36,139 bases of DNA, taken from Microcaldota archaeon (GTDB taxonomy: Archaea; Micrarchaeota; Micrarchaeia; Micrarchaeales; CABMGC01). The notes beneath the pieces were generated by a model. That model made no database searches. It worked only from the letters and a program-made list of their open reading frames with translations, and was not told the DNA's origin. This document shows, piece after piece, positions 18,120-20,158 of this stretch (position 1 is the stretch's first letter; each line of letters begins with the position of its first letter). A program made the position numbers and the translations under genes. The stretch covers positions 261 to 36,399 of the forward strand of contig DAHVAM010000005.1 of NCBI GenBank assembly GCA_027314605.1. Reading direction: 5' to 3'.

Positions 18120-18130
18120 GTTTATATACC
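18120..18130. promoter_or_regulatory. TATA element shared by trxA and the histone operon
   Basis: On the minus strand this reads GGTATATAAAC (trxA, start near 18100); on the plus strand it reads GTTTATATACC, which would start a transcript near 18150, immediately at the C-box-like GTGATGA of the histone leader. No other TATA box is evident for either gene. Confidence 0.6.
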
Positions 18131-18152: not shown

Positions 18153-18201
18153 GTGATGAGCGATACTTCTGATGACGGATGATGAAGATCTTGAGTGCTG
18201 A
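18153..18201 (+). ncRNA. C/D-box-like sRNA in the histone 5' leader
   Basis: The stretch contains, in order and with archaeal spacing, GTGATGA (C, 18153-18159), nine bases, CTGA (D', 18169-18172), six bases, ATGATGA (C', 18179-18185), twelve bases (AGATCTTGAGTG) and CTGA (D, 18198-18201). Twelve bases between C' and D is the standard guide length. The predicted transcription start from the plus-strand TATA element falls at about 18150. The terminal stem is weak, and the sequence lies only five bases from the histone ATG, so the boxes could be coincidental or the leader could bind L7Ae for control of the histone mRNA rather than guide methylation. Confidence 0.45.
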
Positions 18202-18980: not shown

Positions 18981-19220
18981 GTGAACATACGCGTATCGGA
19001 ACTATATGGCAAAAGGATAATATCCAACGAAGGGAAGATGCTCGGCGAGGTTAAGGGAGTAATGCTGAATCTTGAGGAGGGAGTTGTTTCACATCTTCTT
19101 TTAACGGAACCAGAAAGGCTCCTGAAGAGCACCAACCCGAGAGTAGACATACAGAAGGGAAGCGTTGCCTTCAAGAGAGTAAAGAAGATATCCGAGACGG
19201 TTATAGTAGGAAGGGAGTGA
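18981..19220 (+). CDS. PRC-barrel domain protein
   Basis: The 79-residue protein is a lone PRC-barrel: RVSELYGKRIISNEGKMLGEVKGVMLNLEEGVVSHLLL, then a KGSVAFKRVKKISETVIV strand pair. Such small archaeal proteins are often adaptor or RNA-related beta-barrels; the family includes the domain found in RimM. I start at GTG 18981, preceded by GAGTGAT, because the track's TTG 18960 lies inside the upstream gene. Its TGA overlaps the GTG of the next gene (GTGA). A second, related PRC-barrel gene lies at 35257-35541. Confidence 0.8.
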   Translation: MNIRVSELYGKRIISNEGKMLGEVKGVMLNLEEGVVSHLLLTEPERLLKSTNPRVDIQKGSVAFKRVKKISETVIVGRE

Positions 19221-20158
19221 CGGCCGTGGCCATTCTTGGATCCGGACATTTGCTCGGATTTCCAAAACGCTACGGAAAATGTTTTCACAGCAGGTACATG
19301 GCGCAGAGCGCAATGGAGTACCTGATGACCTACGGCTGGGCCATACTAATCATCGCAGTTGTGCTGGGGGCGCTCTTCGGGCTCGGTTTCTTCAACTCTG
19401 CGAATCTCGCGCCGAAGGTATCTGCAGGCGCATGCCAGGTATACAGGCCACAGGGGCCCGGGACAACTTCCTTCATAAACCTTGAGGGGACATGCAACAA
19501 CGAGCTGCCGCAGTACGTGGCGCAGTTCAACGGCGCGAGCAGTTACATTGGCACCGGTACGGGGGGGATGCCTGTTGGCTCCGCTGCGAGATCGGTTTTC
19601 GCATGGGTATATACAAACGCTACGCCGCAGATGGAGCGGCAAATATTCGACTATGGGACAGCCACGAGCGCCAACGATATTGAGTTCGAGGATGGCTATA
19701 GTTATTTGGCCCTCAAGACCTATTCGTCGCAGTGCTTCTGCAATGGCCCGCAGATCCAGATGTCTGCAGGCGCCTGGCATTTTGTAGGTTTCACCTACGC
19801 CTCCGGCGCATCTGCCATAACAGTGTACCTTGACAGTAAGTCCTCAGTCCTGACATCTGGAACAGGGCCTTTACACACTGTTCAGGGTTATGCCGATATA
19901 GGTTCGTTTGTCTTTCCTGGCGGTTTCTGGAGCGGGAAGGTAGCTGATGTGCAGGTCTACAATACCTCGCTCACTGCGAGTGAGATAGCCGCACTATACA
20001 ACGAAGGGATAGGAGGCGTGCCTGTTCTTCCGCAGAACCTGGTCGGATGGTGGCCGCTGAACGGCAACGCCAACGACTATTCAGGCAACCTGAACAACGG
20101 CGCCGCCAGCAATGTAATATATACAGGCTCGTGGACTTCAGGATACAGCGCGCCGTAG
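19217..20158 (+). CDS. Secreted LamG-like protein with class III (pilin-type) signal peptide
   Basis: Near the N-terminus, after basic residues (FPKRYGKCFHSRY), comes AQSAMEYLMTYGWAILIIAV, a class III signal peptide processed by an archaeal prepilin peptidase and typical of pilin-like surface proteins in ARMAN-type archaea. The rest resembles a LamG/concanavalin-like beta-sandwich (QFNGASSYIGTGTG ... SVFAWVYTN ... WHFVGFTYASG ... GKVADVQVYNTSLTASEIAALYNEG), a fold used for carbohydrate or surface binding, followed by the start of a second WWPLNGNANDYSGN repeat that is cut short. GTG 19217 overlaps the previous stop; ATG 19298 is a shorter alternative that would lack the basic stretch. It is probably displayed on the cell surface or on a pilus. 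Confidence 0.82.
   Translation: MTAVAILGSGHLLGFPKRYGKCFHSRYMAQSAMEYLMTYGWAILIIAVVLGALFGLGFFNSANLAPKVSAGACQVYRPQGPGTTSFINLEGTCNNELPQYVAQFNGASSYIGTGTGGMPVGSAARSVFAWVYTNATPQMERQIFDYGTATSANDIEFEDGYSYLALKTYSSQCFCNGPQIQMSAGAWHFVGFTYASGASAITVYLDSKSSVLTSGTGPLHTVQGYADIGSFVFPGGFWSGKVADVQVYNTSLTASEIAALYNEGIGGVPVLPQNLVGWWPLNGNANDYSGNLNNGAASNVIYTGSWTSGYSAP

Follow-up and report, generated by a model that had tools for sequence, protein, structure and literature searches.

The window, a 36,139-nt stretch of DNA from a Microcaldota archaeon (Micrarchaeota in the GTDB lineage), carries an archaeal histone gene whose ATG lies, by direct reading, 5 nt past the last box of a compact RNA-like element (Table 1). 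This gene is the sole strong histone match in the source genome, and the element ahead of it is, as read from its sequence, a box C/D sRNA whose four boxes all match the consensus. The initial annotation had proposed C, D', C' and D boxes in that order, and direct reading bears this out for every one of them. Its 12-base C'-D guide holds as a 12-nt spacer, but the effective guide is shorter, spanning the 10 nt at 18187-18196, and the first base of the spacer is unconstrained. Farther along the window, and judged by eye, the N-terminus of an ORF at 19217-20158 (QSAMEYLMTYGWAILIIAVVLGALFGLGFF) looks pilin-like, and the same ORF may contain a laminin-G/concanavalin-type region.

Table 1. Features of the histone locus (positions within the window).
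Feature	Position	Strand	Remarks
TATA element TTTATATA	18121-18128	+	33 nt upstream of the C-box TGATGA
C box GTGATGA	18153-18159	+	consensus RTGATGA; TGATGA in 89/89 aligned leaders
C-D' guide GCGATACTT	18160-18168	+	9 nt, variable beyond the genus
D' box CTGA	18169-18172	+	CTGA in 77/89 and CCGA in 10/89 leaders
C' box ATGATGA	18179-18185	+	TGANG(A) in 89/89 leaders; relaxed in second family
C'-D spacer AGATCTTGAGTG	18186-18197	+	direct sequence reading
C'-D guide GATCTTGAGT (nt -11 to -2)	18187-18196	+	complement of tRNA-Leu(CAA) nt 31-40
D box CTGA	18198-18201	+	found alongside the guide in all leaders counted
Archaeal histone gene, 69 aa	18207-18416	+	Pfam PF00808, E 2e-7

Archaeal box C/D sRNAs are expected to have RUGAUGA C and C' boxes and CUGA D and D' boxes in order within 50-70 nt, an architecture shown by the window element and by those of 89 relatives. 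Of its two guides, the C'-D guide alone has the expected ~10-nt complementarity to a stable RNA with the target nucleotide at -5. A permissive Rfam scan of the element returns C/D-box families on the + strand as its top matches, including sR5 (E 8e-6, 30.7 bits vs a gathering score of 40) and snoPyro_CD (E 1e-3, 25.7 bits vs a gathering score of 45), and no curated Rfam C/D family exceeds its gathering score at the histone-leader element. Because Thermococcus and Nitrosopumilus sRNAs with the same guide likewise fall under the Rfam cut-offs, the sub-threshold score is a limit of the library and not a defining trait. As the initial annotation had noted, there is no long terminal stem: over the order as a whole, 138 of the 348 possible pairs form, vs 144.5 in shuffles, and thus no excess pairing is seen. 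In a second family of these leaders, a candidate stem between the D' and C' boxes has GC/GC pairs that are nearly invariant and so offer no covariation to score. The C-D' guide has no convincing tRNA or rRNA target, its best 16S match being 7/8 pairs plus one G-U, and its sequence is kept within a genus only and is variable otherwise. Several genera of the second family (L255-L270, L189, L194, L196 and L197) have a common C-D' guide, AATGCACTACG, that may have a conserved target of its own there.

The C'-D guide can be matched to a single tRNA. Numbered upstream from the D box, nt -2 to -11 (GATCTTGAGT) form 10/10 Watson-Crick pairs with nt 31-40 of tRNA-Leu(CAA), as read from the source genome's own gene, and G18193, which is guide nt -5, lies opposite C34. 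C/D RNPs methylate the nucleotide paired to the fifth guide position ahead of box D, and methylation is high with duplexes of 8-10 bp (PMC7089733). From the 10/10 pairing and the -5 rule, therefore, the wobble base C34 is the predicted methylation site. In Pyrococcus and Sulfolobus, too, C/D guides have been predicted for C34 of tRNA-Leu(CAA) (PMC7994747, PMC7668247). No other sequence scanned equals the 10/10 pairing, among the 30 tRNA loci and 16S of the source genome and the 23S of relatives. Within rRNA, the C'-D guide has no comparable match in 16S or in relatives' 23S, strands being only partly sampled; relatives' sequences were used for the 23S scan, the source assembly is without a 23S, and the strand of two of them (L209, L211) is unsettled by motifs. 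The initial annotation had asked for rRNA and tRNA complements and had predicted a target, CACTCAAGATCT. The core of this prediction, ACTCAAGATC, is right and corresponds to nt 31-40 of tRNA-Leu(CAA), but in the genome the exact 12-mer is found nowhere except on the strand complementary to the sRNA. The same 10 nt, apart from U34, are present in tRNA-Leu(UAA). The element is well supported as a predicted guide for methylation of C34 in tRNA-Leu(CAA).

Among 60 relatives searched for the target gene, 59 have the string CTCAAGATC with a T-arm motif after it, and the CTCAAGATC loci that were read are tRNA-Leu genes, including the source genome's own (G000:C33:22733). ARAGORN, however, detects tRNA-Leu(CAA) in only 1/29 loci, its sole call (L052) being a gene without an intron. 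The tRNA-Leu(CAA) genes of the order (L041-L069) have, with the exception of L052, a short T-loop intron of roughly 10-20 nt, and it is because of this intron that ARAGORN misses them. In the source genome, the gene lies around 1501-1536 of L061 (G000:C33:22699-22799).

Sequence conservation was assessed across the order (Ca. Micrarchaeota) in a sample of 164 genomes. Among the first 30 relatives, the element is immediately upstream of a histone in 30/30, so the boxes are conserved ahead of relatives' histones, a check that the initial annotation had called for. A strict 20-base pattern is present in 91/164 genomes, each time ahead of a histone, with two further copies that both lie at contig ends. 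Since the reversed control pattern is found in 0/164 genomes, the element is not a chance occurrence. The histone leaders of genomes that lack the strict pattern were then retrieved, and most of these deviate in the C' box only. Altogether, the element lies 1-62 nt upstream of the histone gene in 147/157 genomes with a histone match, and the exact 10-mer is kept in 144. In 89 aligned leaders, the D' box is kept in 87, and guide positions -2 to -11 are invariant save for -5 (97%); position -1 is G in 93%, position -12 is unconstrained (0.12 bits), and conservation 3' of the D box is weak. The 89-leader set was anchored by a pattern that contains the guide, and the proper denominator for conservation is therefore 147/157. 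Ten of the 157 genomes are exceptions: five have weaker histone matches only (G061, G024, G015, G031, G121), in one the contig stops inside the histone (G095), the leader of one was left out of inspection (G154), and three have a good histone and no element (G082, G086, G105). Divergent histone paralogs of five genomes lack such a leader.

The few guides that deviate, and the genomes that have none, can be set beside the target. All three deviating guides differ at -5 only, the base that specifies methylation. Two of them belong to genus g7 (G011 and G035; L008 and L023), where U at -5 pairs with neither Leu tRNA and the element is kept; the third (L254 in G110) has A at -5 and would match tRNA-Leu(UAA). 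As for the tRNA, tRNA-Leu(CAA) was found in 59/59 guide-bearing genomes examined. In the three genomes with a good histone and no guide, tRNA-Leu(UAA) was found and tRNA-Leu(CAA) was not detected, these genomes being incomplete; the same is true of G015, which has no guide and no strong histone match. This co-absence of guide and tRNA gives a Fisher P of ~3e-5 for the three good-histone genomes, of which G082 and G086 share a genus, and because the genomes of the order are incomplete the absences are soft. There are also exceptions, as G024 and G031 keep tRNA-Leu(CAA) with no guide detected. Regarding the histones of such genomes, G082 lacks a normal histone start, and the histone of G086 has a short, plain leader downstream of a TATA-like element, from which it follows that the sRNA is not required for the existence of a histone gene.

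The position of the promoter bears on how the sRNA and the histone gene are expressed. TATA-like matches number 47 among the 89 leaders, and 41 of them start 33-28 nt upstream of the C-box TGATGA. Archaeal transcription start sites lie ~25 nt from the centre of the TATA element, and this spacing therefore places the predicted transcript start at the 5' end of the sRNA. The initial annotation had predicted a start at the C box, and the TATA is indeed placed, order-wide, for a start just upstream of it. The distance from the D box to the histone is 1-62 nt, which in most genomes leaves no space for another promoter. Because the TATA sits at start distance from the C box and in most genomes no second promoter can be accommodated, the sRNA and the histone mRNA very probably share one transcript. 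At three loci (L030, L171 and L207), no in-frame start was seen other than those within the C' box or guide, so that the guide doubles as the histone N-terminus (MMILSAE..., MMILSTE...).

The same guide is found well beyond this order. A scan of GTDB genomes for the C' box, guide and D box returned at least 118 stretches. Among the matches listed, all are archaeal but for one contig that bears a Proteobacteria label and an sRNA of thaumarchaeal appearance. Guide sRNAs without a nearby histone occur, among these matches, in Thermococcus, Nitrosopumilus, Thermoplasmata, Heimdallarchaeota and other Micrarchaeota, and no histone match is present at any of the listed loci from other phyla. For instance, the sRNA of L129 lies 5 nt upstream of a gene that by eye is exonuclease III-like. 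Many thaumarchaeal members have a terminal stem, whereas none is shown in the histone-leader order. One contig labelled Marsarchaeota (L152) does show the histone arrangement, and its label or its binning is probably wrong; a further locus outside the order (L153) was considered as histone-linked on account of a histone-like N-terminus and was rejected, as its ORF is by eye not a histone. Thermoplasmata sRNAs with the Leu(CAA) guide (L086, L091, L097, L115 and others) share a conserved second guide, ACGAACCCTTT, which is similar in sequence to what would complement a tRNA T arm. With the guide so widespread among archaea, its capture as a histone leader is therefore a feature of the Micrarchaeota order studied.

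Taken as a whole, the locus suggests the following model, to which we assign a probability of roughly 0.9: the histone leader is a C/D sRNA made from a shared TATA promoter that would guide 2'-O-methylation of C34 in tRNA-Leu(CAA). A single TATA promoter would drive the histone gene from a start just upstream of the C box, making the sRNA the initial ~50 nt of the histone transcript. Bound by L7Ae, Nop5 and fibrillarin, the sRNA would base-pair over 10 nt with tRNA-Leu(CAA), at the anticodon loop and 3' anticodon stem, and direct 2'-O-methylation of the wobble base. It may be processed out of the histone mRNA, shielded while the rest is degraded, or made instead of the mRNA, and the histone promoter would be its fixed host promoter. 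A more speculative extension of this model, which we consider less likely than not, is a leader with two fates. Here each transcript would become either a tRNA-Leu(CAA) guide or a histone mRNA, the supply of C/D RNP would set histone output, and wobble modification, and with it UUG decoding, would be coupled to the supply of a chromatin protein; this coupling would be what keeps the linkage order-wide.

Other readings of the locus must be weighed against the guide model. The element may be a regulatory leader, in which bound L7Ae or the whole C/D RNP represses or consumes the histone mRNA and histone output would follow L7Ae/RNP or tRNA-Leu status. Such histone regulation through the sRNA leader is possible, if short of an even chance, and is compatible with guide function. 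It would fit an element that is tied to one histone order-wide and absent from that histone's paralogs, that adjoins other genes elsewhere, and that genus g7 retains despite a mismatching -5 base. It also has precedents, since L7Ae represses its own mRNA via a k-turn in the leader (PMC5539422) and C/D sRNAs that overlap the 5' ends of genes reduce downstream expression (PMC7994747). However, regulation by the boxes alone needs no 10 guide bases, yet these are the most conserved part of the element, and the element is gone with the histone retained where tRNA-Leu(CAA) is not detected. Because the guide bases are kept, and not the boxes alone, regulation by L7Ae is not needed to account for the conservation. 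Alternatively, the leader could act as a T-box-like sensor that binds tRNA-Leu rather than guiding its methylation. The conserved bases are an exact complement of the anticodon arm, as a sensor would have, but all four boxes are conserved, and with the spacing of a guide RNA, the same boxes and guide occur away from histones across archaea, and the tRNA would have to be opened for its anticodon stem to pair, which together make a sensor very improbable. Least credible is a chance motif, or conservation owed to encoding the histone N-terminus: the guide is also translated in L030, L171 and L207, but the coding explanation was rejected as the distance to the histone start codon varies with all frames represented, the same 10-mer and boxes occur in other phyla without any histone, and the reversed control found nothing.

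The sRNA guide itself belongs to a known class; the novelty lies in its being fixed as a histone leader across an order. In the open-access literature, we found no paper that pairs Micrarchaeota with box sRNAs and no report of an archaeal histone-leader C/D sRNA. The locus provides a predicted methylation site, C34, for an order of Micrarchaeota. It also offers a defined system in which to study the sharing of a transcript between sRNA and mRNA, as well as a possible link between tRNA wobble methylation and histone supply.

Among known systems, the closest are the predicted Leu(CAA) C34 guides of Pyrococcus and Sulfolobus (PMC7994747, PMC7668247), which have the same boxes and the same target nucleotide, C34. 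Archaeal C/D sRNAs for position 34 combine one tRNA guide with one targetless guide, as does the histone-leader sRNA. Unlike them, the present sRNA is a histone leader with a shared promoter, no terminal stem and an order-wide placement. Archaeal C/D sRNA genes are described as variable in genomic context and quick to change their guides (PMC7994747). According to the portion of that paper that relays Tripp 2017, C/D sRNA genes that overlap the 5' ends of ORFs make up ~7% of genes in six species. As described in that portion, and as here, the sRNA and the downstream gene have a common transcript, with a start codon that may lie inside the sRNA or directly after it; those overlaps are, on the same account, rare and variable in context, whereas the present one is fixed on one gene in almost every species of an order. 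The autoregulatory leader of L7Ae (PMC5539422, PMC6298567) is likewise an archaeal mRNA leader with a k-turn-forming element, but there a single k-turn without a guide masks the l7ae Shine-Dalgarno sequence. Ahead of the histone gene, in contrast, lies a complete two-motif guide RNA, and any regulation through it is putative.

In eukaryotes, snoRNA host genes carry intronic C/D RNAs within the transcripts of particular protein genes. The archaeal arrangement resembles them in that a C/D RNA is conserved inside the transcript of one protein gene, and with one guide and one host gene kept together across a 164-genome order, it can be seen as their counterpart. Unlike in eukaryotic hosts, the RNA lies in an exonic leader and not in an intron, and the sRNA and the mRNA may therefore compete for one transcript.
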